From Orenia marismortui DSM 5156 (GTDB lineage: Bacteria; Bacillota; Halanaerobiia; Halobacteroidales; Halobacteroidaceae), in assembly GCF_000379025.1 (NCBI RefSeq), contig NZ_KB900623.1, forward strand, positions 1 through 35,355: a DNA stretch of 35,355 nt, written 5' to 3'. A program made the position numbers and the translations under genes. The notes under the pieces were generated by a model. It was given only the letters and a program-made list of their open reading frames with translations. It had not been told where the DNA came from and did no database searches. Positions 13,783-34,769 of the stretch are shown in pieces (positions within the stretch are counted from its first letter, which is position 1; the number at the start of each line of letters is the position of its first letter).

Positions 13783-14340
13783 ATGAGAATTATTGCTGGA
13801 AAAGATAAAGGAAGAAGGTTAAAATCTTTAAAGAGAAGAGATGTGCGACCTACTACTGATAGAACTAAGGAGTCTATATTTAATATTTTAGGGCCTAATA
13901 TAGCAGGTACTAGATTTTTAGATTTATATTCTGGTTTTGGTGGTATAGGTATAGAAGCTTTAAGTCGTGGGGCTAAAGAGGTTGTTTTTGTTGAGAAGGA
14001 TCGAAGGAATATCAAGGTTATTAAAGATAATTTGAATTTAGTAGATTATGAAAAAAATAGCCAAATAATAAATAATGATGTTTTGAGAGCGTTGCCAATA
14101 TTAAGTGGTGAATTTGATCTGATATTTATGGATCCACCTTATGAAGAAACTGAACTATATACTAATACTTTAAATAAAATAAAATCTTATAATTTATTAT
14201 CTGATAATGGAATTATAATTATTGAATATGATGCTAAAGATAAAATAGAAATTCCTGAGGGATATAGTATAATTAAACAAAAAAGATATGGAAAAGCAGG
14301 TATTATATTAGTTAAAGAGATAAAAGGAAAGGATGAATAG
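13783..14340 (+). CDS. rsmD: 16S rRNA (guanine966-N2)-methyltransferase
   Basis: 185 aa. The N-terminus [20 protein letters not shown] and [15 protein letters not shown] are diagnostic; the SAM site [20 protein letters not shown] and catalytic DPPY (117-120) follow. It methylates G966 of 16S rRNA in the assembled small subunit. GGAGGTG precedes the ATG. The rsmD-coaD-ylbJ order matches ylbH-coaD-ylbJ of Bacillus. Confidence 0.96.
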
Positions 14341-14342: not shown

Positions 14343-14840
14343 TTGAGTAATATAGCTGTTTATGCAGGAAGCTTCGATCCTGTAACTAATGGTCATTTAG
14401 ATATTATTAAACGGGCCAGTAGAATTTTTGATAAAGTAATTGTTGCAGTTTTTCATAACCCAAATAAAAATCCTCTTTTTACGATGGAAGAGAGGATGGA
14501 AATCTTAGAAGAGGCTATTACAGATTACGAAGGGGTAGAAGTAGATGGTTTTGAGGGATTATTAATAGATTATATCAGAAAGCATAAAGCAAAAGTTATT
14601 ATTAGGGGTTTGCGTGCAGTTTCTGATTTTGAATCAGAATTTCAAATGGCTTCTATGAATAAGAAGTTGGCACCTGAAATAGAAACTTTATTTATGATGA
14701 CTAGTACAGAAAATGCATATTTGAGTTCAAGCTCTATTAAGGAAGTAGCTAGTTTTGGTGGTTGTATAGAGGGGTTAGTACCTGATCCTGTTATCCCAAA
14801 ACTTATTAATAGGCTAAGAGAAGAAGATAAGATGATATAA
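14343..14840 (+). CDS. coaD: Pantetheine-phosphate adenylyltransferase
   Basis: 165 aa, the usual length. It adenylates 4'-phosphopantetheine to dephospho-CoA. Seen: [17 protein letters not shown] with the nucleotidyltransferase TxGH motif (H18), [31 protein letters not shown], and the ISSS-like [10 protein letters not shown]. Start is TTG two bases after the rsmD stop, behind AAAGGA. Co-transcribed with rsmD. Confidence 0.95.
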
Positions 14841-16645: not shown

Positions 16646-16697
16646 ATTCTAAATAAAAGCTTAGGATAAATATTTATCCTAAGCTTTTATTTAGAAT
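16646..16697. terminator. Perfect 52-nt palindromic terminator at the end of ylbJ
   Basis: ATTCTAAATAAAAGCTTAGG begins a 26-bp arm that is exactly mirrored by its complement ending at 16697, with no loop. It contains the last codons and stop of ylbJ (16687) and T-rich arms in both directions. Confidence 0.8.
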
Positions 16698-17544
16698 GAT
16701 GAAAAATTACAATTTGTATTTTTCTAATAAAATAAATAGTTAAAGAAGTAAATATTAAAAATCCTATAGCTAAGAAAAGACCAATTGACATCTTTGTGAA
16801 ATGTGATAGATACCCAATACTATAGTTAAATTGTTCAATATTAGATGTAACAGGTATAATTAGATTTGATGAGATAGCTTCTAAGGGATCAAATAAAAAG
16901 AAAGTTATTATACTGGCTGTTATTCCGTGTAGTATTCTAGCCCAAATATAAGGTTTCATTCTTAAATCTGTACCATTAATCATAGTAGCTACTTGAGCAT
17001 GAACAGAAAGGCCACTCCATGCTATAATACCACTTGTAATAATTAATTTCTGGCTTAAAGGAGCTACAGCTTGGCTAGCAAGGTGAGATCCATTAGTAAT
17101 TTCAAATAATCCGCTAATAAGTGGTAATACTAGAGATTGTTCAAATCCAAAAGGCTTTAAAATAAATACAATTCCACTAGTGATGATTTTAGTAAAGCCT
17201 ACTAAAGCTAAAACTCTGGTTAAAACAGAAAATAAAATAATATATCCACCAACTAATAATAAGGTATTAATCGATTCTTTAATTGAATCTCCAATTAATT
17301 GTCCTAAGCTTCGGCCATCTTTCTTTCTAGCTTGATATAGTTCACTAAAGGCACGATAAAATATATTTTTATCTTGGTTGCTGCTACTAACTACATCCTT
17401 ATTATCATTCTTAGGATTATAAAACCTCAATACTACGCCTACAATTAGACAAGAGATGTAATGGGCTAAGGCTAAGGTAGTTCCTAATACAGCATTCCCA
17501 AACATCCCTACTGCTACAGCAATGGTAACATGGTTATAAAAAAA
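16687..17544 (-). pseudogene. ylbJ: ylbJ, sporulation integral membrane protein, 3' part interrupted by prophage
   Basis: Only the C-terminal part (272 codons from the first ATG at 17505, about 285 open codons in all) of a multi-helix membrane protein remains. Landmarks of YlbJ: AVAVGMFGNAVLGTTLALAH, LGQLIGDSIKESINTLLLVG, the gate-like GFEQSLVLPLISGLFEITNG, and WSGLSVHAQVATMI. Bacillus YlbJ is about 408 aa and is made in the mother cell under SigE control. The expected preceding segment (a TSNPLFMFGA-like motif) is absent; instead the frame runs into the integrase stop codon. It lies downstream of rsmD-coaD as in Bacillus. The 5' part should sit beyond the right end of the prophage, outside this window. 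Identity is from motif and context. Confidence 0.8.
17506..17544. other. Probable attL junction of the prophage in ylbJ
   Basis: YlbJ-like sequence (GCTGTAGCAGTAGGGATG on the minus strand) gives way to unrelated codons (FFYNHVTI) immediately before the integrase stop. The crossover should lie in these ~40 bases; the exact core cannot be fixed without attR. Confidence 0.6.
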
Positions 17545-19047
17545 TTAAGTCTTAAATATGATTTTCATTAAATCTTGTCTCTTAGATAGCTGTATCTCGC
17601 TAATGGCTTGGATTAAGATGTTCTTTTTTTTATTAAGAGAGATATCATCATTTTCTAGAGTGTGAATTAATCTGTTTATTTGCTGCTTAAAGCCTTCGTG
17701 ATCAGTAGAAGTGCTATTAATTGCATCTTCTAATTCGGCTATTCTATCCTCAATTTCTTCTTTTTCTTCCTTCAATCTCTCTTTATATCCTTGCAGCTGT
17801 TCTAAATCAATTACTCCAGCTTCAAAGGCTTGCATTTGTTTATCGAAGCGATTATCAAAGTTTTCATATTTCTGTTCTAATTGATTAAGTTCTTTGATCA
17901 AATCATTATTATTAGTTTTTGTAATTTGAAGGGTGGATATATCAACTTTATCCCTAATAATTTCTTTTAGATAACTTACAAGTCCTTGCTCAACTTCTTC
18001 CATACTCCAATAATTAGGGTAGCAATCCTTAAATCGAACATGTCGAGTACACCTCAGTTTCCTTGTTATTTGCTCCTTATCTGCTCCTACAGGCTTATAT
18101 CTTTGAGTTAGTTGTGATAGGTTACCTTCGCACTCCATGCATGTCACAAGTCCTTTTAAGAGGTAATCCTTGCTCGCGTTCTTCTTTGATTTTTTGTTTC
18201 TTTTTAGTAGTTCCTGGACTAATTCAAATTGATCTTTATCAATAATAGCCGGGTGGTTATTTTCTATCTGAGTATCATTCCAAATATAATTACCTATATA
18301 AACTTCATTAGATAAAGTATTACGGATAGTTTTAGGAGCCCAGCTAATCTTTTGGTCATTATGTTTTCCTTTATTATCGATAGCTTTAGACACTTTAAGA
18401 AGGGCAGAGTCGCCAAATAAATTCACTCCATTTGCTCTTAAGTCTACTCCGATCTCTCTTAAACTATTACCTTTAATATATTGTTTGAAGATATATCTTA
18501 CCACTTTAGCCTCAGGCTCATATATTTTGTATTTGCCGGTCTCTCTATCAATAGAGTACCCATAGGGTGGCTCTCCTAAAGCAACTCCTTTCTTGGCTTG
18601 CTGATTCATTCCTTTCATAACTTCCTCTGATAGGTTAGCAGAGAAGTATTCAGCAACGGCATCCATCATTCTTTCAGCAAACATACCATGAGGAGTATTG
18701 GTATCTATATCTTGAGTAACACAGATTAAATCTATATTTCTATCTTCACGAAGTAATTTCTTATAGACTACAGCATCATACATATTTCTGAACATTCTAT
18801 CGCCTTTATGGTAGAGGATAACATCAAAAGGCTTAGGATCTTTCTTAGCTTCGGCTATCATTTTTAAGAATTCATCTCGTTTATCTGCTGTTTTCGCAGA
18901 GATTCCATCATCTATGTATTTCTTAACTATCATTAAATTATTCTTACTAGCATACTCATGTAGTTTTTCTAATTGAGCAGGGATAGAAATATCTTTATTT
19001 GCTTGCTCATTGGAGGATACACGAGCATATATTGCAGCTTCTCTCAT
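17545..19047 (-). CDS. int: Large serine recombinase (phage integrase)
   Basis: 500 aa. It catalyses site-specific integration and, with a directionality factor, excision. Seen: resolvase catalytic domain (1-150) with YARVSSNEQ holding the nucleophile S11 and the arginine-rich DRMFRNMYDAV; a recombinase domain (~165-280) with GEPPYGY; a zinc ribbon (~300-345) with CMECEGNLSQ and two later Cys (C332-type LRCTRH, FKDC); and a C-terminal coiled coil (~385-465), as in phiC31/Bxb1-type integrases. The ATG at 19047 is behind AAAGGAG. The stop abuts the ylbJ remnant in the same reading frame. I see no small excisionase-like (RDF) gene that I could name. Confidence 0.95.
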   Translation of the reverse strand: MREAAIYARVSSNEQANKDISIPAQLEKLHEYASKNNLMIVKKYIDDGISAKTADKRDEFLKMIAEAKKDPKPFDVILYHKGDRMFRNMYDAVVYKKLLREDRNIDLICVTQDIDTNTPHGMFAERMMDAVAEYFSANLSEEVMKGMNQQAKKGVALGEPPYGYSIDRETGKYKIYEPEAKVVRYIFKQYIKGNSLREIGVDLRANGVNLFGDSALLKVSKAIDNKGKHNDQKISWAPKTIRNTLSNEVYIGNYIWNDTQIENNHPAIIDKDQFELVQELLKRNKKSKKNASKDYLLKGLVTCMECEGNLSQLTQRYKPVGADKEQITRKLRCTRHVRFKDCYPNYWSMEEVEQGLVSYLKEIIRDKVDISTLQITKTNNNDLIKELNQLEQKYENFDNRFDKQMQAFEAGVIDLEQLQGYKERLKEEKEEIEDRIAELEDAINSTSTDHEGFKQQINRLIHTLENDDISLNKKKNILIQAISEIQLSKRQDLMKIIFKT

Positions 19048-19087
19048 TGGAATCACTCCTTTATCATGATTATAAAACAATAAATAT

Positions 19088-19114
19088 AAAAAGAAAACCC
19101 CTAAAATGGGGGTT
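19088..19114 (-). terminator. Terminator of the RexAB-like operon
   Basis: On the minus strand AACCCC/GGGGTT with loop CATTTTA, followed by TTCTTTTT. It separates the operon from the integrase. Confidence 0.75.
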
Positions 19115-19125
19115 AAAATGTTTAT

Positions 19126-19578
19126 TTAACTTTCTTTGACTTTTTTTATTAGTTTTATCAAATTAAATATAGACTTTATAAAAAATACTATTCCAAAGAT
19201 AAGGGATATTCTTTCTATCAAAATCAAATTATTATTTGAAACCATTAGCAATAGTAGGACTGATGCAATTATTGAAATAAAATGAAATAGCATGCTTAAA
19301 TATATTGCGTTATAGTATTTATCTAGATATCCATTTTCATTTAATCTTGCAATTCTAGGTTTATCTGAAACACTTATCATTATACTAAGTCCTGTAAATA
19401 AGAAACCGGCAAATATCGAATTAATTGTCAGGAGGTTAAAGTGATAACTACTTTTATTTATTGTGCAATTTAAGTCTATGATATTCTTTTTTATTGCAAA
19501 AATAAAGAATAAAGCAGTAATTATCAGGTAAAAGATGTTACCTTTATTTTTCCTTATTGAAGTTTTTAAATCTTGCAA
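19126..19578 (-). CDS. RexB-like four-helix membrane protein
   Basis: 150 aa from a TTG start at 19578 (AAGGAGG eight bases before). Four hydrophobic segments: NIFYLIITALFFIFAI, TINSIFAGFLFTGLSIMIS, AIYLSMLFHFISIIASVLLL and ISLIFGIVFFIKSIFNLIKL, with a charged loop SDKPRIARLNENGYLDKYY between the second and third. Size, four-helix topology and position 19 bp after a RexA-like gene match RexB of lambda (144 aa, four helices), an inner-membrane effector of superinfection exclusion. KwaA of the Kiwa system is another four-helix partner of a cytoplasmic protein and is the main alternative. Homology to RexB itself cannot be shown by eye. Confidence 0.5.
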   Translation of the reverse strand: MQDLKTSIRKNKGNIFYLIITALFFIFAIKKNIIDLNCTINKSSYHFNLLTINSIFAGFLFTGLSIMISVSDKPRIARLNENGYLDKYYNAIYLSMLFHFISIIASVLLLLMVSNNNLILIERISLIFGIVFFIKSIFNLIKLIKKVKES

Positions 19579-19597
19579 GACATACACCTCCTTAAAG

Positions 19598-20527
19598 TTA
19601 GTCTGCAATGTTTGGTCTTGTATATTTTAGAAGTTCATCTTCTTTTGATATATATATTTCTTTTAACTTGTTTAAGATTCCTTCATTATTATCATATTTA
19701 AAAGTAGCTTTTTTTGTTATTTTATTTCGTAGTATATCATATTCGTCTAATTTTTCACCATGATCTTTTGCTTTTATTTTACACTTACTTATATGTCCTC
19801 TACTAGTATTAAATACACTTGAAATAAATTCTTTTATTTTCTGAGCTGGTAAATTTTCAAATATACTTCGGTTTCTATTAGAAATTAATTTAACAGAAAC
19901 TTCTTGTTTTTTTAAATTTCCCGTGTGAATTTTATCAAATTCTTTTTCATTTAAACCAATCTCTTTGTAGCCTAAAACTTCATCTGATGGAAGAGCTACA
20001 GAAAATTGTATATTACTAATAACACCTTTTCCCTTTATAATATCTACAACATCTTTGGTTAATATAGGAAGTATTTCTGTTCCTATATTTTTCTGTGATA
20101 CAAATTGTGTTATCAAGTCATTTAGGACTGTTATACTAGGAGCAGATAAGGTGTTTATAAAAGTTACTATTCCGGTTTTAAAGTTTAATAAAAAGTATGT
20201 ATAAATTTCTATATCCTGATTGTCTTCTTTTTCTATTTCAGCCGGTTTAAGGTCTATTCTATCTCTTAGATGAACAGCAGTATCGTTTTTAGTTTTTCCT
20301 AATCTAGCAAATAAATACTCATCATTAAAATCAATGACTTCTAATGTCTGTTGCCTAGGAGTTCTTTTGATTACCAAACAAGAATTGGTTAAATTCTTTT
20401 CATCAAGTATAAGGTTATATATATCCTTGATTCTTTTTCTATCTAGATATTTTTGTTTGCCTTCTTCATTTTGAGCAATATTTTTGAAAATTTCCATTTG
20501 GTAAAAATAAACTGTTCTTTGAGCCAT
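19598..20527 (-). CDS. RexA-like cytoplasmic protein, putative phage-exclusion sensor
   Basis: 309 aa, no membrane segment. By eye its middle and end follow the order of lambda RexA (279 aa): YFLLNFKTGIVTFINTLSAP then ITVLNDLITQ against RexA's FLFVEGDTIGFARTVFGPTT then SDLTDFLIGK; TEILPILTKDVVDIIKGKG, then QFSVALP against VQIEPLMRGTTKDDV, then VEAKLP; and a late ISKCKIKAKDHGEKLDEYDI against ISLRAKDEAGDILTEHYL. It is encoded on the repressor strand and would be expressed in the lysogen, directly ahead of a four-helix membrane protein, as rexA-rexB are. The similarity is remote and needs a profile search; a KwaB-type (DUF4868) or DUF6731-type protein is the alternative. AGGAG precedes the ATG. 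Confidence 0.5.
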   Translation of the reverse strand: MAQRTVYFYQMEIFKNIAQNEEGKQKYLDRKRIKDIYNLILDEKNLTNSCLVIKRTPRQQTLEVIDFNDEYLFARLGKTKNDTAVHLRDRIDLKPAEIEKEDNQDIEIYTYFLLNFKTGIVTFINTLSAPSITVLNDLITQFVSQKNIGTEILPILTKDVVDIIKGKGVISNIQFSVALPSDEVLGYKEIGLNEKEFDKIHTGNLKKQEVSVKLISNRNRSIFENLPAQKIKEFISSVFNTSRGHISKCKIKAKDHGEKLDEYDILRNKITKKATFKYDNNEGILNKLKEIYISKEDELLKYTRPNIAD

Positions 20528-20569
20528 AATTAATAATCTCTCCTTTAGTTTTAATAGTAAAATATAAAT

Positions 20570-20983
20570 CTAATTATCTTTATCTACTATTTCTTTGAGT
20601 AGCTCATTAGTAACTTCAGTTTGCTTATTTAGAATAACAGTTTGTTCATGTAAACTAAAAAACAAAATTGAATATTCATAGCTTATTCTAGCGACTATAT
20701 TACCTACAAGTATTATAAGTATTTTCCCTAATACACCTTCGTAATTTAAACCTATTAAAGTAATTGCAATAACTAAAATCCAATAAATCAATTCATGAAA
20801 AGCATAAGTTATAAATGTTTTATCTTTTACTAAATTTGGGGCTTCAATATTAGATTGTTCTTCAGATACATCTTCTAGATCATGAAGGTTTTTTAATTTT
20901 TCATGGCAATACGGACATTCTTTTTTCTCCAAGACTGCCTCAGTAAGTCTAATTATATTGTTACAATAAGGACATTTTTTCAA
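20570..20983 (-). CDS. Zinc-ribbon membrane protein, first gene of the Rex-like operon
   Basis: 137 aa from a TTG start at 20983 (AGGAG eight bases upstream); the frame is open further upstream but a promoter there fits the shorter form. The N-terminal zinc ribbon has two CPYC knuckles (KKCPYCNNII and KECPYCHEKL). Two hydrophobic helices follow, LIYWILVIAITLIGLN and VLGKILIILVGNIVARISY, then a polar helical tail. The stop is 42 bp before the RexA-like gene on the same strand, so it is probably co-expressed. Function unknown; its place in a three-gene operon suggests a partner of the exclusion pair. Confidence 0.65.
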   Translation of the reverse strand: MKKCPYCNNIIRLTEAVLEKKECPYCHEKLKNLHDLEDVSEEQSNIEAPNLVKDKTFITYAFHELIYWILVIAITLIGLNYEGVLGKILIILVGNIVARISYEYSILFFSLHEQTVILNKQTEVTNELLKEIVDKDN

Positions 20984-21044
20984 ATTGTTTTCTCCTTTCT
21001 TTTTTAAAAGACAAATAGTAGACATAAATCCCAGTTGACTTCCT

Positions 21045-21073
21045 AATATAGACAAAATTTGCGCATGAAGCAA
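21045..21073 (-). promoter_or_regulatory. Probable promoter of the zinc-ribbon/RexA-like/RexB-like operon
   Basis: Minus strand TTGCTT (21073-21068), 17-nt spacer, TATATT (21050-21045), about 60 nt ahead of the TTG start. With the terminator at 19088 it makes the operon an independent lysogenic unit. Confidence 0.4.
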
Positions 21074-21169
21074 AAAATAAAAAGATTTAAGCTTAAGTGT
21101 GGTGATGTAGAAGCTACCTGGAAGGGTAGTTTTATCTATTGTTTGTCTAATAGATCCCTTACTATTGAT

Positions 21170-21403
21170 TTAAATCTTTTTAAAAACTTGTCCACAATTT
21201 TTACAAACTTTTCTTCCCTTTAAAAATATCGAGGTTAAAGATAATATAATACCAAAGCTTATTCCAATTAAACTGAAGGGTATATATATTAAAAATTTAA
21301 AGCTAATTCCAATCAAAAGAACACCAATAGCAAAAAAATAAAAAGAACCTCTTGATTTGTAGTTGTCACTTCCACAGTTAGGACACTCATTTGCTATCTC
21401 CAT
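21170..21403 (-). CDS. Small zinc-ribbon membrane protein, 77 aa
   Basis: The ATG at 21403 is behind AAGGAG. Paired knuckles at the two ends, ECPNCGSDNY and KVCKNCGQVF, flank two hydrophobic helices (FYFFAIGVLLIGISFKFL and IPFSLIGISFGIILSLTSIF). This hairpin membrane topology would bring both knuckles together on one side to form one zinc site. A TATAAT-like -10 lies at 21439-21434 on the minus strand. Function unknown; expressed from the lysogenic strand. Confidence 0.65.
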   Translation of the reverse strand: MEIANECPNCGSDNYKSRGSFYFFAIGVLLIGISFKFLIYIPFSLIGISFGIILSLTSIFLKGRKVCKNCGQVFKKI

Positions 21404-21556
21404 TAACAACACTCCTTTTTTAATTTTTTCATCATTATACACCAAAATTGCTAAATATATCTGACGTATCTATAAATAAAAACCTAGCATTAAGCTAAGT
21501 TTAACTGTTGTAAAAAGTTAAAGACTTCGTTACATTTCTTAAAGAAATCCTTATCT

Positions 21557-21646
21557 AGACCGTACGGTCTTCTTATGGTTTGCCTACACTGACCAATTAG
21601 AATTAGAAGTAGAAAGAGAATAAGAATAAGAATAAGAATAAGAATA
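21557..21646 (+). other. Decayed copy of the phage replication-origin segment
   Basis: The perfect 14-bp palindrome AGACCGTACGGTCT (21557-21570) matches the GACCGTACGGT inside the replication gene (32660-32670), and both are followed by GA/AAGAGAATAAGAA-type tracts. Read in the same frame it gives DRTVFLWFAYTDQ then LELEVERE and a stop, resembling the linker of a DnaD-like phage replication protein. A short AGAATA tandem repeat (21617-21646) follows. The rest of the 21404-21721 gap contains no gene. Confidence 0.5.
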
Positions 21647-21721
21647 TAAAAGACATAGTTCGGACTCTGTCACGAACTTCCTCTTAACATTAACCATTAT
21701 AGTTAAATATTTCCCAAACTA

Positions 21722-21751
21722 ATAAAAAATAAAAAGGGTAATTAACCCTTT
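21722..21751 (-). terminator. Terminator of the repressor/coiled-coil unit
   Basis: Minus strand AAAGGGT/ACCCTTT with loop TAATT, followed by TTTATTTTTTATT. It ends the repressor operon before the next lysogenic gene. Confidence 0.75.
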
Positions 21752-21755
21752 GTAA

Positions 21756-22055
21756 TTATTTCTTTTTCCAATTTCTCATAACTTCACTGCCGAGCTCCAA
21801 CCAATCTTGAACGTTATCTTTTTTTAAAATTTGATTATTTTCATTAACTTGTAGGGCGATAGCTTCATTTTGAGCTTCAATATTGGCGGTCTTTCTTTTT
21901 AATTCTTTAATATCATTTGCCATATTATCAAGTCTGCTATCCATACCATCAAGCCTATTACCCATTCCATCAAGTCTATCGTCTATACCGCCAAGTCTAT
22001 TATTAATTTTACCAACTTCGCTAACCAGCAACTCCAACATTTCTTTTTCAGTCAT
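21756..22055 (-). CDS. Coiled-coil protein downstream of the repressor, 99 aa
   Basis: The central part is a run of heptad-like repeats built on NRLxGxDxRLDxM (from about residue 16 to 45), followed by KELKRKTANIEAQNEAIALQ, giving a long amphipathic helix; the tail is DWLELGSEVMRNWKKK. GAGGTG precedes the ATG. It follows the repressor by 16 bp and shares its terminator, so it is made in the lysogen. Similar repeat proteins often sit beside phage repressors, but their role is not established to my knowledge. Confidence 0.75.
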   Translation of the reverse strand: MTEKEMLELLVSEVGKINNRLGGIDDRLDGMGNRLDGMDSRLDNMANDIKELKRKTANIEAQNEAIALQVNENNQILKKDNVQDWLELGSEVMRNWKKK

Positions 22056-22071
22056 ATTTATTCACCTCGAT

Positions 22072-22701
22072 TTATAGTTTAGTCTTAACTTCAACCGCCT
22101 TGCCAATTATTTTAACTTCATTGGCAGAGTAGATCATAGGGTCATATTTATCATTGTCAGCATGCAATATAATAAATTCCCCTTTTTTGTGTACTCGTTT
22201 AAGAGTAGCTTCATCTCCATTAACCATCACTACAGCAATTTCTTTATTCTCAACGTCCTCCTGTTTGCGTATAAGGACTAAACTGCCTTCTCTGATGTTA
22301 GAGTTCACCATGCTATCACCAGTGGCTTTAAGATAGAAATACGTGCCTCCATTGATATCCTGCTTTCTTACATATTCATAGCCAATAATATTTTGTTCAG
22401 CTAATACAGGAGTACCACAAGGGATTGTCCCGATAACAGGTATCTCAATCATATCTTTTTCAAAATCTACTGGGATAGCTCCGGGAGGCAGGGGAGTTCT
22501 CATATCTGTTCGACCTAAAAGATAGTCGACTGATACATCGAAGAAGTCTGCTAGTTTAGCTAGCATTTCATTATCAGGACTTCTTTTTCCTTGTTCATAA
22601 TGACCTATAGCTCCTCTTGTGATACCTAATTTATCAGCCAGCTCTTTTTGTGTTAAATTCATTTCCATTCTTAATTTTTTTAGTACCTTTCCAGCATCCA
22701 T
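22072..22701 (-). CDS. Phage repressor, HTH plus LexA/S24 peptidase domain (CI-like)
   Basis: 209 aa. An N-terminal Xre helix-turn-helix (5-60, LTQKELADKLGITRGAIGHY) is joined to an S24 self-cleavage domain with the scissile-type pair C95-G96 (TIPCGTP), nucleophile S130 in TGDSM, and general base K168 in DEATLKRV. RecA-triggered autocleavage would induce the prophage. The ATG at 22701 lies seven bases after AGGAGG; the TTG two codons earlier is less likely. It faces the cro-like gene across four operator-like sites. Confidence 0.95.
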   Translation of the reverse strand: MDAGKVLKKLRMEMNLTQKELADKLGITRGAIGHYEQGKRSPDNEMLAKLADFFDVSVDYLLGRTDMRTPLPPGAIPVDFEKDMIEIPVIGTIPCGTPVLAEQNIIGYEYVRKQDINGGTYFYLKATGDSMVNSNIREGSLVLIRKQEDVENKEIAVVMVNGDEATLKRVHKKGEFIILHADNDKYDPMIYSANEVKIIGKAVEVKTKL

Positions 22702-22734
22702 TGGCAAACCTCCTATGTTATTATTTTAATTATA

Positions 22735-22852
22735 CTACAAATAGTATCGCCAATAAACAAACGATACGAAATGGTTCAAAAATTTCAAAAAAGTCTTGAC
22801 AGGTACGTTTTGTATCGCGTATAATAAGAATAACAAAGATACAATTCGTCTC
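22735..22852. promoter_or_regulatory. Switch region: four operator-like sites
   Basis: Sites sharing GATAC-N5-GTA-like symmetry: O1 CTACAAATAGTATC (22735-22748, touching the TATAAT of the repressor promoter at 22734-22729 on the minus strand), O2 GATACGAAATGGTTC (22763-22777), O3 GTACGTTTTGTATC (22803-22816, inside the early promoter), and O4 GATACAATTCGTCTC (22838-22852). O1 and O3 are the best matches, with the form TAC-N5-GTA. The layout lets repressor and Cro control both promoters. Confidence 0.65.
22796..22825 (+). promoter_or_regulatory. Early lytic promoter (PR-like)
   Basis: TTGACA (22796-22801), 18-nt spacer, TATAAT (22820-22825), 47 nt ahead of the cro-like gene. Operator O3 occupies the spacer. 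Confidence 0.8.
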
Positions 22853-22872
22853 TTAAAAAGGGGGTGTTTTAA

Positions 22873-23103
22873 ATGAGGGAAGAATTAATTAAATTGCGTA
22901 AAAAAGAGGACTTAACTCAAAAAGAAGTGGCAGAATTGCTTGATATAACTAGAGGTTACTATGGACACATAGAAACAGGCAGGAGAAATCCTCCTTTGAA
23001 ATTAGCTTTAAAAATAGCTAATTTGTTTGAGAAGAAAGTGGAGGATATTTTTTTAATCATTAACGAGACGAATTGTAGCGACAAAACTCGAAAAGCCAGT
23101 TAA
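22873..23103 (+). CDS. Cro-like Xre helix-turn-helix regulator
   Basis: 76 aa, almost entirely one Xre domain: LRKKEDLTQKEVAELLDITR then GYYGHIETGRRNPPLKLALKIA. Divergent from the repressor, it is first under the early promoter, so it probably plays Cro's part. GGGGGTG precedes the ATG. The C-terminal tail ends TRKAS and its DNA (AAAAGCCAGTTAAT) recurs in the leaders at 23619 and 24689, as if the gene's 3' end had been copied into the array downstream. Confidence 0.85.
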   Translation: MREELIKLRKKEDLTQKEVAELLDITRGYYGHIETGRRNPPLKLALKIANLFEKKVEDIFLIINETNCSDKTRKAS

Positions 23104-23129
23104 TATTATGACCGAAAGGAGTGATGAAA

Positions 23130-23333
23130 GTGGGGATGTTAAGTGTTAGAGGGCTGTCTATGAAAGAGCAAGGCGAAAAACTTAAGAAAGCAAGAGAAGT
23201 TGAGGGGCACATTATAGAGAGATTAAAAGAAACCAATTTTACTGTTAGAGACTGCATAGTTATTTTAGATGAGGCTAAAGCAACTATACAGTCAGCTTCA
23301 AAAGAACAAACTATTGAATCATTGAATTTTTAA
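23130..23333 (+). CDS. Small hypothetical protein, array pair 1, plus member
   Basis: 67 aa, helical and charged (LSMKEQGEKLKKAREVEGHI). Candidate starts are ATG 23124 and GTG 23130; the GTG lies eight bases after AAAGGAG, matching its array neighbours. Its stop codon overlaps that of the minus-strand gene ending at 23330 by two bases. Function unknown. Confidence 0.6.
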   Translation: MGMLSVRGLSMKEQGEKLKKAREVEGHIIERLKETNFTVRDCIVILDEAKATIQSASKEQTIESLNF

Positions 23334-23557
23334 AATTTCCTTTGTTCTTTCATTTCATTGATTCGGTCTTGGTGTTGCTTTAATTTTCTGTCTCCATTTT
23401 TATATAAATCTTCATAATTCCAATGATAGATTATATATAAAATTTGGTGGTCTTCAAACCCGCTAAATATCGGGGGATATTCTGTGGCTTTAAATTCTTC
23501 AAGTTCAAATTTAGCCGATAGCAAAGCTATTTCGTGACATATTTTTTCTTTGTCCAA
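23330..23557 (-). CDS. Small hypothetical protein, array pair 1, minus member
   Basis: 75 aa from a TTG start eight bases after GGAGG (an in-frame GTG upstream overlaps the ribosome site). Sequence DKEKICHEIALLSAKFELEE then a Tyr/Trp-rich part YIIYHWNYEDLYKNGDRKL. It is transcribed from the promoter in the leader to its right. Function unknown. Confidence 0.6.
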   Translation of the reverse strand: MDKEKICHEIALLSAKFELEEFKATEYPPIFSGFEDHQILYIIYHWNYEDLYKNGDRKLKQHQDRINEMKEQRKF

Positions 23558-23562
23558 ATACG

Positions 23563-23675
23563 ACACCTCCTTCCGATTACCAATATTCTACAGAAGGAGA
23601 GCGAAGACCTGCAACCCAAAAAGCCAGTTAATAGTATCCCCAAGATTGCTAGTTGGTATGTTAGGAGGTGAGAGT
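23563..23675. repeat. 113-bp divergent leader repeat, copy R1
   Basis: Identical to 24633-24745 except at two positions (23574 C against 24644 T; 23589 T against 24659 G). It carries the ribosome site for the minus gene at its left end (CACCTCC), that for the plus gene at its right end (AGGAGGTGAGAGT), the minus promoter, and GATACTATT on the minus strand, which matches nine bases of operator O1. Confidence 0.95.
23585..23614 (-). promoter_or_regulatory. Array minus-strand promoter in R1
   Basis: Minus strand TTGCAG (23614-23609), 18-nt spacer, TAGAAT (23590-23585), then a ~20-nt leader to GGAGG. The same -35 with the extension GT recurs in all four leaders. Confidence 0.6.
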
Positions 23676-23676
23676 T

Positions 23677-23856
23677 GTGGAGATATCAGAAATATTAGAG
23701 AAACAATTGAAAGGGCTGTGTGAGATACAATCGAAAGCAATTGAGAATTTAAAAGACAATAAAGCAAGTCAAATGGATGTAGAAATTTTAGAATTTTCAA
23801 ATAAGTTAATAGGTGAGAAAATGGATCAGATACAGAATGCAAAACACATGTATTGA
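23677..23856 (+). CDS. Small hypothetical protein, array pair 2, plus member
   Basis: 59 aa from GTG at 23677, eight bases after AGGAGG supplied by repeat R1. Helical: EISEILEKQLKGLCEIQSKA, then VEILEFSNKLIGEKMDQIQN. The latter is faintly like the helix of Spo0E-type phosphatases but lacks their SQxLD motif. Ends 17 bp from the converging gene. Function unknown. Confidence 0.55.
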   Translation: MEISEILEKQLKGLCEIQSKAIENLKDNKASQMDVEILEFSNKLIGEKMDQIQNAKHMY

Positions 23857-23873
23857 GAGGGAGAGGTTTAAGA

Positions 23874-24077
23874 TTATTTAGAAGAGCCTATGTGTATATC
23901 TTTTATTGGTGTATTATTTGTTTCGGCGACAGACTTGTAAATTGTTTTATAAAATTTAGCTACTTCATTAGCTAAATTCTTATTAGCCTCTGAATCGTGA
24001 TTTAATAAAGAACTTGTATTTTCATTACGATCTAGAACTTTTAGAGTTAATTGCAAAGCAATTTCTTCTGGTTTCAT
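23874..24077 (-). CDS. Small hypothetical protein, array pair 2, minus member
   Basis: 67 aa, MKPEEIALQLTLKVLDRNEN then a helical LANEVAKFYKTIYKSVAET. GAGGTGG precedes the ATG. Promoter at 24151-24123. It resembles short phage proteins with a conserved DRNE...AKFYKTIY-like layout, but I cannot name the family. Confidence 0.6.
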   Translation of the reverse strand: MKPEEIALQLTLKVLDRNENTSSLLNHDSEANKNLANEVAKFYKTIYKSVAETNNTPIKDIHIGSSK

Positions 24078-24122
24078 TTTACCACCTCATGTTTAGTTTT
24101 AACCTCTCCCTCATGATTGGTT

Positions 24123-24151
24123 ATTCTAGATAAAATAGGAAAAACCTGCAA
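24123..24151 (-). promoter_or_regulatory. Array minus-strand promoter in leader R2
   Basis: Minus strand TTGCAG (24151-24146), 17-nt spacer, TAGAAT (24128-24123). This leader is otherwise diverged from R1/R3 but keeps the -35, the -10 and AAAAAGCCAG. Confidence 0.6.
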
Positions 24152-24180
24152 CATAAAAAGCCAGCTAGGGGGTGAGAGTT

Positions 24181-24351
24181 GTGAGTGATGATATTTCTAA
24201 AGAAAAGCTAGAATGGATGGAAGAAGTGGGAATGAAAAGATTTGATGAGCCAATGGAATATCATTTGTTTGGTCATATATTTTCTGAAGGTTATTTAAAA
24301 CGTACCCCTCTAGAAGTTTTAAAAGAGAGGCACGGAGATAAAGATTGTTAA
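24181..24351 (+). CDS. Small hypothetical protein, array pair 3, plus member
   Basis: 56 aa from GTG at 24181, after GGGGGTGAGAGTT. Sequence SDDISKEKLEWMEEVGMKRF then EYHLFGHIFSEGYLKRTPLE. Acidic N-terminus, aromatic centre. Ends six bases before the converging gene. Function unknown. Confidence 0.55.
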   Translation: MSDDISKEKLEWMEEVGMKRFDEPMEYHLFGHIFSEGYLKRTPLEVLKERHGDKDC

Positions 24352-24357
24352 GAATTT

Positions 24358-24627
24358 TTATAGATTATTTTTAGCATAATCTATCCCAATATCAGAAATT
24401 TGGACATTGTAAGCTATATTATCAGCATAAAAAACATCAAGAAAGTTGTTTTCATCTAATTCTCTGCAAAGTTCATCAACAACTTCAAAAGAATATTGTG
24501 AGGCAATAGACTTTTGAATATCTTTAGAGCTACCAAACATTTTGGCTTTTGGTTCAGAAATACCATTTTTAAGTTTTTGGCAATATTCATTATAAAGCAA
24601 CTGAAGTAAATTATTTGATTTAGACAC
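24358..24627 (-). CDS. Small hypothetical protein, array pair 3, minus member
   Basis: 89 aa from a GTG start eight bases after GGAGG supplied by R3. Reads SKSNNLLQLLYNEYCQKLKN, then a compact alpha/beta part ASQYSFEVVDELCRELDENN and NIAYNVQISDIGIDYAKN; the end resembles a winged-helix wing, as in small phage DNA-binding proteins. Function unknown. Confidence 0.6.
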   Translation of the reverse strand: MSKSNNLLQLLYNEYCQKLKNGISEPKAKMFGSSKDIQKSIASQYSFEVVDELCRELDENNFLDVFYADNIAYNVQISDIGIDYAKNNL

Positions 24628-24632
24628 AAGTT

Positions 24633-24745
24633 ACACCTCCTTCTGATTACCAATATTCGACAGAAGGAGAGCGAAGACCTGCAACCCAAAAAGCCAGTTA
24701 ATAGTATCCCCAAGATTGCTAGTTGGTATGTTAGGAGGTGAGAGT
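24633..24745. repeat. 113-bp divergent leader repeat, copy R3
   Basis: The second copy of the R1 sequence, 1070 bp away, with two mismatches. It feeds a different pair of genes on its two sides than R1 does, so only the leader, not the flanking genes, is duplicated. Confidence 0.95.
24655..24684 (-). promoter_or_regulatory. Array minus-strand promoter in R3
   Basis: Minus strand TTGCAG (24684-24679), 18-nt spacer, TCGAAT (24660-24655). The -10 is weaker than in R1 by one base. Confidence 0.5.
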
Positions 24746-24746
24746 G

Positions 24747-24902
24747 ATGAGTGAATTAGAGAAGAAGATCTCAGATTTAGAAAAGAGAGTGGCTGAACTG
24801 GAAGGGCGAGTTCCAGAACAGCTAAATGATACAACCAAAATAGCAAAAGAGAGTAAAAAAACTATTAAAGAAATGTATCAAAGAGAAAAGTTAAACTCCT
24901 AA
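24747..24902 (+). CDS. Small coiled-coil protein, array pair 4, plus member
   Basis: 51 aa, ATG at 24747 behind AGGAGGTGAGAGTG. A near-perfect leucine-zipper start (MSELEKKISDLEKRVAELEG) followed by a polar tail. It overlaps the converging gene by 12 bp. Probably an oligomerising small protein; role unknown. Confidence 0.6.
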   Translation: MSELEKKISDLEKRVAELEGRVPEQLNDTTKIAKESKKTIKEMYQREKLNS

Positions 24903-25166
24903 TAAATCTTTTTTGATTAATTTACTAATTTGCTCCTTTTCTTCATCAGATAATTCAGTTAAATCAATATCTGAATTAATTAAAAGAGCCAGTTTGATGG
25001 ATAGATTAGAATTAAGCATTGCAAAACGAGAAGTTATTGTTGCTTGAGGATTGTCAGGATTATCTTTTTTAAATTTTTCTATAGCTTCGATAAAACAATC
25101 CTTAATTAAAGGTAAAAGAACTTTTTCATACTCTTTGATTTGATTTTCTAATTTTTCTAGATCCAA
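24891..25166 (-). CDS. Small hypothetical protein, array pair 4, minus member
   Basis: 91 aa from TTG at 25166, behind GGAGG supplied by leader R4. Helical: DLEKLENQIKEYEKVLLPLI, then ATITSRFAMLNSNLSIKLAL and an acidic LTELSDEEKEQISKLIKKD. Function unknown. Confidence 0.6.
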   Translation of the reverse strand: MDLEKLENQIKEYEKVLLPLIKDCFIEAIEKFKKDNPDNPQATITSRFAMLNSNLSIKLALLINSDIDLTELSDEEKEQISKLIKKDLLGV

Positions 25167-25172
25167 TATAAT

Positions 25173-25223
25173 TACCTCCTTCCTATTACCAATATTCGAC
25201 AGGAAGAGAGTAGTGACCTGCAA
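25173..25223 (-). promoter_or_regulatory. Leader R4: partial repeat with minus promoter
   Basis: Shares CCTCCTTC.TATTACCAATA and TTCGACAG with R1/R3. Minus promoter TTGCAG (25223-25218), 18-nt spacer, TCGAAT (25199-25194). Its right half is replaced by AAAGGAG for the antirepressor gene. Confidence 0.6.
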
Positions 25224-25242
25224 ATAGAAAGGAGACAAGACA

Positions 25243-26055
25243 ATGAGTGATTTACAAATTTTCAATAATGATGAATTTGGCAAGATCAGAGTAGTTACGA
25301 TTGATAATGAACCTAGTTTTGTAGCAAAAGACGTTTGTAATATTTTAGATTTAGGTAATACGAGCGAAGCAATGAGAAGAATTAAAAATAGGTGGGTCAG
25401 AAAAGTTGAGGTACCTCATCCTCAAAGTAAAACTAAGACTATGAAAGTCAATTCAGTTACAGAAGCTGGTCTTTATAAGTTGGTTATGAGGAGCAATAAG
25501 CCAGAAGCAGAAGATTTTACAGACTGGATAGCAGAAGAAGTATTACCGAGTATCAGAAAACATGGAATGTATGCTAAGGATGAAATTTTAGACAATCCTG
25601 ACTTACTTATAGAAGTTGCAACTAAGCTTAAGAATGAAAGAGAAGAGAGAAAGAGATTAGAAGTTCAAATCAGGAAGAAAGATCAATTAATAGGTGAGCT
25701 TAAACCTAAGGCAGACTATACAGATACTATCCTTAAGAACAAAAGCTTAGTGACTATTACCCAAATAGCTAAAGATTATGGGATGAGTGGCAGAGCTATG
25801 AATAGTTTATTACATGAATTGGACGTACAGTATAAGCAAAGTGACCAATGGTTGTTATATGCAAAATATTCAGGCAAAGGTTATACTCATTCATCAACTT
25901 TTAACTACAATAGATCAGAAGGAGCTACAGGTGTAAGCGTGACCACTAAGTGGACTCAAAAAGGTAGATTGTTCTTGTATAATCTGTTAAAAGAGAATGG
26001 TATTGTTCCAACAATTGAGCGAGACCAAGAGCTAAGATTAGTTAGTTCAAGTTAG
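25243..26055 (+). CDS. Phage antirepressor, BRO-N plus KilAC (Ant) domains
   Basis: 270 aa. An N-terminal BRO-N domain (1-105: GKIRVVTIDNEPSFVAKDVC, VNSVTEAGLYKLVMRSNKPE, WIAEEVLPSIRKHGMY) is followed by a coiled linker (~125-150) and a C-terminal KilAC/phage_pRha-like domain (TITQIAKDYGMSGRAMNSLL, TTKWTQKGRLFLYNLL). Such proteins counteract repressors or bind DNA during lytic growth. AAAGGAG precedes the ATG. First long gene after the array. Confidence 0.92.
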   Translation: MSDLQIFNNDEFGKIRVVTIDNEPSFVAKDVCNILDLGNTSEAMRRIKNRWVRKVEVPHPQSKTKTMKVNSVTEAGLYKLVMRSNKPEAEDFTDWIAEEVLPSIRKHGMYAKDEILDNPDLLIEVATKLKNEREERKRLEVQIRKKDQLIGELKPKADYTDTILKNKSLVTITQIAKDYGMSGRAMNSLLHELDVQYKQSDQWLLYAKYSGKGYTHSSTFNYNRSEGATGVSVTTKWTQKGRLFLYNLLKENGIVPTIERDQELRLVSSS

Positions 26056-26127
26056 GTTAACAATTATATCCAAGCATAGGACAAACATTTTAAGTAATAC
26101 CTTTTATTAGAGGGGGGGGCGGTACTT

Positions 26128-26265
26128 ATGAAAGTTATAGGCTGTTATAGAGATGAAAAGGGAGAAATCAAGGAGCTGGATGAGGAAAGAATGAAGAAGA
26201 TAGCGAAAAAGCTCCTTGAAATTCAAGCAAAAGCAATTGGCTATGAGATAGCCTGGACTGGATAA
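26128..26265 (+). CDS. Small hypothetical protein, 45 aa
   Basis: ATG at 26128. Reads MKVIGCYRDEKGEIKELDEE then KIAKKLLEIQAKAIGYEIA. A short beta start and one helix. Its ribosome site lies in AGGGGGGGGCGG, a run of eight Gs, which is remarkable in this AT-rich DNA. Confidence 0.55.
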   Translation: MKVIGCYRDEKGEIKELDEERMKKIAKKLLEIQAKAIGYEIAWTG

Positions 26266-26441
26266 AAGAGGAGAGAGGATCTCCTCGAACAGATAATTTG
26301 GACAATCATGACAAGCAAGTTAGCGAGGAACTAACCAGAAAGGTTTATCAACTATCTTACTTATATTATAATGTTCAACCTACTGGAATATCTAGAATTA
26401 TATTCCAGTGTTAATGGAAATATTGGGAGGAGATGAGAAGA
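26266..26441 (+). other. Non-coding or decayed stretch
   Basis: One frame is open from 26248 to 26413 (…DNLDNHDKQVSEELTRKVYQ…) but lacks an ATG or GTG start with a ribosome site; TTG at 26293 is the only candidate. I treat it as a gene remnant or leader. Confidence 0.3.
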
Positions 26442-26588
26442 GTGCATCCGAGATATAAAGAAAAGTGGTTAGAGAGAAAGAAAAAATTATCGCTTAAGCT
26501 TAAGAAAGCAGAAGAGCAAGGCAATGAGGATAGAGTAGAATATTTAGAGAGATTAATCAGAGTAGCAGATAGAAAATTAATCAGCTAA
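26442..26588 (+). CDS. Small basic helical protein, 48 aa
   Basis: GTG at 26442, nine bases after GGGAGGAG (the in-frame ATG at 26433 abuts the ribosome site). Very Lys/Arg/Glu-rich: HPRYKEKWLERKKKLSLKLK then EYLERLIRVADRKLIS, a likely helical hairpin. Function unknown. Confidence 0.5.
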   Translation: MHPRYKEKWLERKKKLSLKLKKAEEQGNEDRVEYLERLIRVADRKLIS

Positions 26589-26612
26589 TAAAAAATGAGG
26601 AGGTTGCTAATT

Positions 26613-27185
26613 ATGTGTGTAGCTAGCGAGCTTAAGAATGTTAGAGAGTCATTAGGAATGAGCCAAGGAGAGTTTGGTGCAATAGTTGGATTTGGAAGAA
26701 CTTCAATCTCAAACATGGAGAAGAAGGAGAAAGATATTCCTGATTTCGTAGTAGAACAGGTAGTTAAGAAAACTAAATCTTGGAAATTAGCAGTAGAGAA
26801 GTGCCAAGAGTGCCGAACCAATATATTTTGTGCTCCATACTTAGATAGTGCTAATGATAATCCATTTTCAGTATTGGTTAAACTCAAAGAGGAATTATCA
26901 GAGGCTATGGATGCAGTAGACGAGCTGATGACTATGGGCATTATCAACAAGAGGGGACGAGAGGATTTAAGTGATAGAGAGTTTCAAAAAACGGGAGATT
27001 TACTAGAGCAAGTTTATGATGTTGGTCCTGCAAGTCAATTTACTATATTGAGATTTGCTGAGGAATATGATCTAGATCCAGTAAGAATTAGATCTAGAAA
27101 TAAGATGAAGTTAGAGAAAAATGGTGCTATAAAAAGAAAGAACTCACCTGCGCCAACAGATGAGTATAATCATTCGCTTATTTAA
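26613..27185 (+). CDS. Xre-family regulator with Cys cluster, 190 aa
   Basis: ATG at 26613 is nine bases after AGGAGG. An N-terminal helix-turn-helix (ELKNVRESLGMSQGEFGAIV, FGRTSISNMEKK) is followed by a Cys-rich segment KCQECRTNIFCAPYL (three Cys, near residue 65-76), an acidic helix and a C-terminal basic tail. It is a possible early regulator that binds zinc or senses redox; the function is inferred from the domain only. Confidence 0.75.
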   Translation: MCVASELKNVRESLGMSQGEFGAIVGFGRTSISNMEKKEKDIPDFVVEQVVKKTKSWKLAVEKCQECRTNIFCAPYLDSANDNPFSVLVKLKEELSEAMDAVDELMTMGIINKRGREDLSDREFQKTGDLLEQVYDVGPASQFTILRFAEEYDLDPVRIRSRNKMKLEKNGAIKRKNSPAPTDEYNHSLI

Positions 27186-27226
27186 TTAACTTTATTTTAT
27201 TATATCAGATACTGGAGGGATAATCA

Positions 27227-27688
27227 ATGACAAGTTACTTATGTGCTACAGCCAAGAGAATCAACAGGAACCTTAATCTTATCAACAAGGATTTTAATGT
27301 TAATGAAGTTACATTGGGGCTTAAAAAATCCCAGATACCTTCTGAATATTATATTCTAGATGAAGATAATAATGTGATCACAACTGTTAAACATGGTATA
27401 GAGAAAGAAATTTTAGCTCAAGAGTTAAAGAGGATTAAAGAAGAAGAACTTTACGTTATAAAGCAGGTAAAAGATAGTGGAGAAACGATTGATATTGGCT
27501 TTGATGAAGGTTGTTTATTGGATTTGATTATTTGTGTAGAGATTGGAGATTTAGTTTTTCACAAAAGAGAAAGATATCCAAATGGAAAGCATCATCATGT
27601 ACTAGAATTTGAATTTGAGAACGGATCGAAAGCAAGATGGGATATATATGAGCAAGAAACTCCTGTATCGATTAAGGAGTTGATATAA
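27227..27688 (+). CDS. Hypothetical phage protein, 153 aa
   Basis: TGGAGGG precedes the ATG. An N-terminal helical part with LGLKKSQIPSEYYILDEDNN is followed by a beta-rich half containing VFHKRERYPNGKHHHVLEFE. No domain recognised. It is joined end to end (TAAGTG) to the next small gene. Confidence 0.7.
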   Translation: MTSYLCATAKRINRNLNLINKDFNVNEVTLGLKKSQIPSEYYILDEDNNVITTVKHGIEKEILAQELKRIKEEELYVIKQVKDSGETIDIGFDEGCLLDLIICVEIGDLVFHKRERYPNGKHHHVLEFEFENGSKARWDIYEQETPVSIKELI

Positions 27689-27838
27689 GTGAAGGTCCAG
27701 GTATTATTCAGATATGGTGAAATAGAGGTTAGCATGAGTGATACTGTACTCGTAGAGCAACTAGAAGATTCATTGAACAGAAACCAGGGCTACGATAGAA
27801 AATATCCCTGGAGATATCGTAGAAGGAGGACGAATTAA
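27689..27838 (+). CDS. Small basic protein, 49 aa
   Basis: GTG immediately after the previous stop. A beta start (KVQVLFRYGEIEVSMSDTVL) and an Arg-rich end (KYPWRYRRRRTN) suggest nucleic-acid contact. It overlaps the next gene by one base (TAATG), so translation is coupled. Confidence 0.5.
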   Translation: MKVQVLFRYGEIEVSMSDTVLVEQLEDSLNRNQGYDRKYPWRYRRRRTN

Positions 27839-28011
27839 TGGGAAGTGAGGCTTGTGTTGAATGGATTGCGCAAAATAGCTTTGTAAGAGTCGGTTGGGAT
27901 TGGGTAGTTGATTCAGAAGAAGATTTAAGTTGTACGATATATTATTGCCCTTTTTGTGGCAGTGAATTAAATGGATACGGATGCACTAAATATAAGGAGG
28001 CTGAAAAATGA
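27838..28011 (+). CDS. Small Cys-rich zinc-ribbon protein, 57 aa
   Basis: Too short for most gene finders, but set in a TAATG/ATGA coupled chain. Cysteines at ACVEW, SCTIYYCPFCGSEL and YGC; the CPFCG knuckle and the upstream Cys could form one zinc site. It overlaps the ATPase gene by 4 bp (ATGA). Function unknown. Confidence 0.6.
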   Translation: MGSEACVEWIAQNSFVRVGWDWVVDSEEDLSCTIYYCPFCGSELNGYGCTKYKEAEK

Positions 28012-29999: not shown

Positions 30000-30000
30000 A

Positions 30001-30186
30001 TTGAGTAAATTTAAGATTGAAATTGAAATTCCAGATAGTAACTTGCCTAATGATAAAATTGACAAACTTTTTCATACTGATAATTGTATCAAGATAGCAT
30101 TACATGAATTTCAAGAAGACCATGGAGATTTAGAAGGAATTAGAGTTCATGACACTATAATAATTGATTCTTTTGAATCTGAATAA
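30001..30186 (+). CDS. Small hypothetical protein, 61 aa
   Basis: TTG start, nine bases after AAGGAGG and one base after the ATPase stop. Reads SKFKIEIEIPDSNLPNDKID then an acidic LHEFQEDHGDLEGIRVHDTI. Lies between the ATPase and recT, suggesting a link to recombination. No family recognised. Confidence 0.6.
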   Translation: MSKFKIEIEIPDSNLPNDKIDKLFHTDNCIKIALHEFQEDHGDLEGIRVHDTIIIDSFESE

Positions 30187-30213
30187 TAAATAAACTTAAG
30201 GAGGAATTAGATA

Positions 30214-31146
30214 ATGAGTAATAATGAATTAGCAGTAGTAGGTCAAAAGATTGTGGATAAGGTTTCTAGTAGGGTGCAGGACTTGCAACAAAAAGGAGAT
30301 TTAGTATTACCTAAAGATTATTCAGCAGCTAATGCACTGAGGTCAGCGTGGTTGGAATTGCAGGATACAAAAACCAAAAACAAAAAACCAGTTTTGAGTG
30401 CATGTAGTCAAAATAGCATAATGAACACTTTGTTAGAAATGGTTACAAAAGGACTTAATCCGAGCAAAAAGCAATGCAGTTTTGTAGCGTATGGTAATAA
30501 ATTAACTTGTCAAGTAGAGTACCCAGGTAATATAAGAATGGTTAAATCCATGGCAGGGGCTGATGATGTTAATGCTACAGTTGTTTATAAGGGTGACGAA
30601 TTAGATTACGAAAAGATAAAAGGGAGAACGGTTATTCATAGCCACAAAACTTCTCTTGAAAACAAAATAAATGGTGAAATAATAGCAGCTTATGCGACTA
30701 TTGAGTTTCCTGGAGAGAAGCCAGATTATAGTGAAATTATGACCTTACAGCAGATGAAACAGGCTTGGAAGCAAGGAAATATGTACAAAAATGAAAACAG
30801 CGACAGTTTTCATAATAAATTTTCTGAGGAAGCTTGTAAAAAGACAGTAACCAACAGAACTTGTAAGACTTATATTCGTAGTAGTGATGATGTTAACTTG
30901 CTCATTGCCAAAGCTAATGAAGCTGGGATTAAAATGTCAGAAGATATTCAAGCAGAGCAGGAAGTGCAAGAAGAGATTGAGGAGAATGCTAATAGTCAAG
31001 TGATTGATATTGAACTTGAAGAACAGGATCAAGAGGAAAAATCAACTTTAGTTTCTGGTCCTATGAAAAATTTAGATGAAGCAAAGAAAATAAAAGAGAA
31101 AGCGGATGAAGAAGTTAAAAATATGCCAGAGGAGCCAGATTTTTAA
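30214..31146 (+). CDS. recT: RecT single-strand annealing recombinase
   Basis: 310 aa, RecT family. Features: MNTLLEMVTKGLNPSKKQCS, FVAYGNKLTCQVEYPGNI, IAAYATIEFPGEKPDYSEIM, KFSEEACKKTVTNRTCKTY; an acidic C-terminal tail (~240-310) that may bind partners. It anneals complementary strands and promotes invasion during phage replication and circularisation. AAGGAGG precedes the ATG; the stop overlaps the start of the metallo-hydrolase (TAATG). Confidence 0.93.
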   Translation: MSNNELAVVGQKIVDKVSSRVQDLQQKGDLVLPKDYSAANALRSAWLELQDTKTKNKKPVLSACSQNSIMNTLLEMVTKGLNPSKKQCSFVAYGNKLTCQVEYPGNIRMVKSMAGADDVNATVVYKGDELDYEKIKGRTVIHSHKTSLENKINGEIIAAYATIEFPGEKPDYSEIMTLQQMKQAWKQGNMYKNENSDSFHNKFSEEACKKTVTNRTCKTYIRSSDDVNLLIAKANEAGIKMSEDIQAEQEVQEEIEENANSQVIDIELEEQDQEEKSTLVSGPMKNLDEAKKIKEKADEEVKNMPEEPDF

Positions 31147-31874: not shown

Positions 31875-31883
31875 GAGGGATTA

Positions 31884-34768: not shown

Positions 34769-34769
34769 A

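Follow-up and report, generated by a model that had tools for sequence, protein, structure and literature searches.

The interrupted ylbJ locus

The window, by which we mean the whole stretch of DNA that was analysed, comprises the first 35,355 bases of the 500-kb contig C7, one of nine contigs of a 3.46-Mb genome (G000). Its host portion carries rsmD (13783..14340, plus strand) and coaD (14343..14840, plus strand), which stand in the same order in G002 and G003, and a TPR-protein gene (14880-16067) that lies between coaD and ylbJ, as it does in G003. Beyond these, on the minus strand, are the 3’ two thirds of ylbJ, also known as spoVV (16687..17517). A profile search with TIGR02871 (spore_ylbJ) matched C7:16870-17520(-) at model positions 129-330 (E 8.9e-53), and alignment with intact orthologues showed that the fragment covers codons ~138-414 (about 278 of the 414) and has neither a start codon nor a promoter, the frame running from the crossover point at 17516-17517 to a stop at 16687. 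The order recG-rsmD-coaD-ylbJ, seen in both G002 and G003, is the ancestral one. An earlier note on this DNA had placed the 3’ two thirds of ylbJ in their conserved position near rsmD-coaD, with a large serine integrase gene directly abutting them; the profile match and the synteny with G002 and G003 bear out the former, and the latter holds as well, the 28 bp in between being a phage attachment arm.

The integrase (17545..19047, minus strand, 500 aa) has a catalytic N-terminal domain containing the motif YARVSS, a recombinase domain and a zinc ribbon (PF00239 Resolvase, PF07508 Recombinase and PF13408 Zn_ribbon_recom, all over cut-offs) and matches PHROG 95, ‘integrase’, with an E value of 1e-105. 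No close relatives of it were found in IMG/VR or GTDB contigs, and a tree of the integrases resolved only the pair formed by the sigK integrases of G000 and G007, which are discussed below. The left part of a prophage fills the rest of the window (17518..35355) and goes on in C7 past its end. It includes a CI/LexA-like lysogeny repressor (22072..22707, minus strand; PHROG 4, E 2e-45) and, divergent from it, a small Cro-like regulator whose helix-turn-helix was recognised by reading the ORF sequence (22873..23103, plus strand). Further along lie an SbcC-like ATPase of a phage recombination module (28008..29999, plus strand; PHROG 77, E 2e-87) and a RecT-like annealing protein (30214..31146, plus strand; PHROG 148, E 5e-58), a near-identical stretch of which is present in a second prophage, in sigK. 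Terminase, portal, major head protein, endolysin and repressor genes were all found with PHROG, and the terminase is 53% identical to that of Clostridioides phage AR1074-1. This is the gene set of a tailed temperate phage.

The missing end of ylbJ was found on another contig. The ylbJ 5’ third with its promoter occupies C6:~173,076-173,493 (plus strand; TIGR02871 match at C6:173109-173498(+), model positions 3-132, E 6.6e-49) and is followed by the other phage end. It opens at a TTG codon with a ribosome site and is preceded by a promoter-like block, AAAGTAATATT...AAATATTAATAAATA, which recurs in conserved form ahead of ylbJ in G006 and G007; past its phage arm, the fragment leads into small lysis-end genes and an endolysin. 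A second ylbJ was not found in the genome with TIGR02871, the third match being weak (E 2e-7) and partial.

Comparison of the two junctions allowed the attachment sites to be placed to the base pair. Intact relatives read ATGATTGGTGCTGTAGCTGTAGGGATG at this site, encoding M-I-G-A-V-A-V-G-M, while the C6 junction reads GGGGCTGTAGC-TCTAGTTACATGATTATAAAAG and the C7 junction TTTTTATAACCATGTTACCATT-GCTGTAGCAGTAGGGATG. A crossover at the GT within GCTGTAGC (codons G-A-V-A-V), which cuts the gene after about codon 138, rebuilds attB exactly. The site attL, consisting of this core and the adjoining phage arm, thus lies at 17513..17541 (minus strand; central GT at 17516-17517), and its partner attR at C6:173487-173515. 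A join at a common GTTAC also stays in frame but is seven residues longer, and was dropped after comparison with the intact relatives. The attP rebuilt from attL and attR, TTTTATAACCATGTTACCATTGCT-GT-AGCTCTAGTTACATGATTATAAAA (24+2+24 bp), is near-palindromic; its length of ~50 bp, its inverted-repeat arms and the central dinucleotide that it has in common with attB give it the form expected of a serine integrase site. The corresponding product in G007, a genome of the same genus in which ylbJ is also interrupted, is TTTTTATATCATATTGTTCATAGTGCT-GT-GGCAAAGGTAACAATATGATATAAAAA, with 18-bp perfect arms at the same codon. That two independent reconstructions centre on the same GT is strong evidence for site-specific insertion.

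In silico, the attL x attR join yields a 414-codon ylbJ frame with no stop, the same as in relatives, so that recombination between the two sites would be predicted to restore the frame exactly. In G007, compared with the intact gene of G006, the dN/dS of ylbJ is 0.016 for the 5’ and 0.036 for the 3’ part. The coding frame kept in both halves and the low dN/dS in G007 are suggestive of ylbJ upkeep, and suggestive only, since a recent insertion would likewise leave both halves intact. The earlier note had proposed a prophage inserted in ylbJ, a reading which the precise att junctions, the adjacent integrase and the tailed-phage gene set confirm. It would have been contradicted by an intact ylbJ elsewhere or by the lack of a ylbJ 5’ fragment; the genome has no such intact gene, and the 5’ fragment is present with attR. 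The joined gene also agrees in length with intact ylbJ of relatives. The 5’ part and attR had been expected at the right end of the prophage, and here the note was right about their existence but not about their place: they lie on C6 instead.

A sister prophage in sigK and the exchanged contig ends

A single prophage with both ylbJ halves on one contig had to be rejected, as the C7 element, followed from the ylbJ 3’ part, ends at ~61.1 kb at the 3’ half of sigK (C7:61,100-61,624). The C6 element, followed from the ylbJ 5’ part, ends at ~209.7 kb at a second serine integrase (486 aa, 40% identical to the ylbJ-side one) and the sigK 5’ half, this sigK-side end spanning C6:208,262-210,010. The presence of this second, closely related prophage had escaped the earlier note. 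Both sigK halves were confirmed with TIGR02846 (positions 2-72 and 70-227). A candidate for a second, intact sigK at C1:546246 was taken to be sigE instead, by reading rather than by a family model: it has a SpoIIGA-like neighbour, and each of the eight family genomes has a related sigma factor. The complete genome G002 has the host flanks in the pairs opuA-sigK-udk and recG/coaD-ylbJ, and in G006 the flank on C6 (cca, ylbJ 5’) and that on C7 (ylbJ 3’) both correspond to one and the same locus; from this flank pairing and the single G006 locus it follows that one prophage belongs in ylbJ and the other in sigK. As assembled, then, the ends of the two prophages are exchanged between contigs.

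The two prophages have mosaic similarity and a perfectly identical block of 7,472 bp (C7 46689-54161), just before which, 355 bp from its edge, C7 contains a 100-N gap. Mis-phased assembly across this block is the simplest account and the more likely one, since a perfect repeat of this length cannot be phased with short reads and the gap lies so close to it. Re-phasing would give lengths of about 38 kb for the ylbJ phage and about 41 kb for its counterpart in sigK. It is also possible, although we think it unlikely, that the exchange is real, and that recombination between inverted prophages inverted the chromosome from ylbJ to sigK, in which case C6 and C7 are correct as they stand. Both loci in the complete G002 are oriented exactly so that an inversion would yield the observed contigs, and C6 is continuous, without a long gap; against this stand, again, the perfect repeat beyond short-read phasing and the gap at its edge in C7. 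An inversion would be compatible with developmental excision of the phages; integrase action would then begin by turning the chromosome back to its former orientation, not by releasing a phage. That there is no ylbJ prophage at all, and that a phage contig, for example, was misjoined to ylbJ, seems very improbable to us: the ylbJ halves do lie on different contigs, but what meets at the two junctions are complementary halves of a single inverted-repeat attP and a single attB core, which a random misjoin would not produce, and in G007, where the integrase is 53% identical to ours, the identical cut is found within a single contig.

Insertions in ylbJ and sigK of other genomes

We looked for split ylbJ genes in a phylum sample of 398 genomes, 338 of which had a ylbJ match, and in a further 61 genomes of the class of G355. 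Both halves on a single contig were found only in G007 and G355. In G007, ylbJ is split by a 39-kb element (C32:3,360-42,460) that carries a type I CRISPR-Cas set (Cas1, Cas4/Csa1, Cas3, a Csc2-like Cas7 and a Cas6-like protein) and among whose genes none for phage structural proteins was seen. In the complete chromosome of G355, 74 kb separate the halves, an integrase of 30% identity stands next to the 3’ part, and the cut falls at A-D-P, about seven codons earlier than the GT site. In G419 ylbJ is cut at the same GT and its 3’ part abuts an integrase that is 25% identical, and in G430 ylbJ is cut at A-D-P with no integrase seen beside either half. With these four genomes, split within about seven codons and mostly by unrelated integrases that converge on one conserved stretch, ylbJ is a recurrent target. 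Partial ylbJ genes at contig edges (G037, G124, G282, G312, G376, G421 and G431) were not counted, and that of G043, considered as a split case, looks like a frameshift. By reading of its ORFs, the 74-kb element of G355 seems to hold a CRISPR-Cas region too.

A different outcome is seen in G004 and G005, where ylbJ is intact and orphan copies of its promoter (~120 bp) and 5’ half occur elsewhere (G005 C5:63785-64219 and 79210-79644; G004 C54:1218-1652 and C62:33377-33811), each ending in an att arm, CTCCGGGAACATCATGATATAAAAA, and each with diverging sequence upstream. These look like an accretion of elements that arrive with a substitute for the ylbJ 5’ end, although no responsible integrase was found in the stretches read. 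Mobile elements carrying a replacement end of their target gene are known, as in integration into tRNA genes; here, by contrast, the target is a protein-coding spore gene. Beside one of the orphan copies we noted defence-like genes, including a 1499-aa SbcC-like ATPase with partners.

The sigK gene is hit in G000, G004, G007 and G011. In G007, too, a sigK 5’ half ends in an integrase. The sigK element of G011 (G011:C35, L134:1250-3933) is only ~2 kb long and holds little beyond a serine integrase, and the join of its flanks restores the frame; it is possibly a fully domesticated, minimal skin element. In G006 an intact sigK stands beside a left-over sigK 3’ half (C8:29114-29839 and 34683-35147) with possible phage remnants between them, and G005 (C15/C4) likewise has an intact sigK besides a left-over 3’ half, a pattern that would fit a sigK insertion later repaired by a route other than clean excision.

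Probable excision during sporulation

The earlier note treated ylbJ as a mother-cell gene, in agreement with published work: ylbJ is spoVV, a gene under sigma-E control whose product acts in dipicolinic acid transport across the outer forespore membrane, and B. subtilis nulls show a more than 1e6-fold drop in heat-resistant spores (PMC5629000). Elements in sigK, spsM, gerE and other genes leave in the mother cell (PMC5025042, PMC4191935, PMC5595907), and in C. difficile skin and in SPbeta the directionality factor is under a sporulation sigma factor (PMC5025042, PMC4191935). By its position within the coding sequence of a mother-cell gene, with its own large serine recombinase beside the att site, the ylbJ phage would belong with these intervening elements of sporulation genes. 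A temperate tailed phage entered ylbJ at the GT in GCTGTAGC by means of its own large serine integrase. We propose that, when the lysogen sporulates, the integrase and a putative directionality factor would recombine attL with attR in the mother cell and circularise the phage. Excision would restore ylbJ in time for dipicolinic acid transport, while the forespore would keep the prophage, and the sister prophage, with its own integrase, would do likewise in sigK. By analogy with skin and SPbeta, we regard such developmental excision as the best explanation, and probably the right one.

Plain lysogeny, in which the phage would leave only on ordinary prophage induction, with no developmental timing, and lysogens would make no proper spores, is the rather unlikely alternative. 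It would fit with the full tailed phage that we see, complete with repressor and structural genes and not reduced in the manner of skin, and with the search for a sporulation promoter: with patterns derived from the ylbJ and sigK upstream regions, a weak test given how few promoters these provide, neither phage yielded a sigma-E-like promoter, whether ahead of the integrase or at any other position, and matches near the integrases did not exceed chance. A candidate directionality factor was likewise not found, either by promoter pattern or among small ORFs shared by the ylbJ elements of G000 and G007, which have only the integrase in common. On the other hand, the same ylbJ segment is repeatedly hit (G007, G355, G419, G430), as is sigK in the four genomes named above, and the ~2-kb sigK element of G011, with little beyond its integrase, suggests that excision was kept. 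Moreover, SPbeta is a full phage too, yet it is excised in sporulation (PMC4191935).

Of the known systems, SPbeta in spsM of B. subtilis (PMC4191935) shares with the ylbJ phage a complete temperate phage genome, a large serine recombinase, a split sporulation gene and a frame-restoring join; its target is a sigma-K gene for spore polysaccharide rather than a sigma-E gene for dipicolinic acid transport. The skin elements in sigK of B. subtilis and C. difficile (PMC5025042) are also serine recombinase elements in a mother-cell gene, and the sister prophage of G000 splits sigK itself. Skin, however, interrupts the gene of a regulator and the ylbJ element that of a transporter; the latter is a full phage, and while the skin directionality factor is under sigma-E and SpoIIID (PMC5025042), none was found in the ylbJ phage. 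The same arrangement is seen in other sporulation genes with vfbin in spoVFB, vrin in spoVR, gin in gerE and yin in yabG (PMC4191935, PMC5595907, PMC10747680). Among these, vfbin interrupts dipicolinic acid synthase, in the same pathway as ylbJ, and gin is a non-phage element, as is the ylbJ element of G007. Some of the four are reduced or non-phage, and excision has been studied experimentally in these systems. In the literature available to us, mostly outside subscription journals, we found no report of an insertion in ylbJ or spoVV and no paper that mentions spoVV along with a prophage; those that mention ylbJ along with one deal, by title and abstract, with a strain genome and the sigma cascade. 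This is in line with the suggestion of the earlier note that this target had not been described. Intervening elements of sporulation genes are well known, and ylbJ is, as far as could be checked, a new target for them.

If excision is developmental, ylbJ would join the few spore genes gated by mobile elements, and the gate would act on the import of dipicolinic acid, which heat-resistant spores require. A more tentative idea, which we find possible but on balance doubtful, is that ylbJ/spoVV serves generally as a developmental switch that is invaded again and again: in distant spore-formers, unrelated serine-integrase elements (phages, a CRISPR-bearing element and a 74-kb island) would enter one ~25-bp stretch and leave it in the mother cell. 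Were this so, dipicolinic acid loading would wait for excision, and in G000 two sister prophages would both have to leave, one for sigma-K and one for spore filling. The recurrence of insertions at one conserved stretch of ylbJ and their two outcomes, namely probable excision to repair the gene and, apparently, the carrying of a spare 5’ end that repairs it on entry, offer a comparison set for elements that spare host sporulation, and the att sites are defined candidate substrates for serine integrases. For annotators, a strain whose ylbJ or sigK looks broken is not necessarily a non-sporulating one.

The motif CATATAGATATAA, a -10-like block of the sigK promoters of the family, occurs once in each phage element (C7:33997 and C6:209318; about 0.1 expected), at places that do not match, and these occurrences are probably due to chance. 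The 13-mer CATGATTATAAAA from the right arm of attP recurs without a mismatch at 19065..19077, in the space that separates the start of the integrase from the next gene upstream, where it could be an integrase binding site or a relic. After this repeat comes CAATAAATATA, an arrangement also seen close to the phage end on C6, and the repeat may represent an integrase operator or a trace of the acquisition of the integrase gene.
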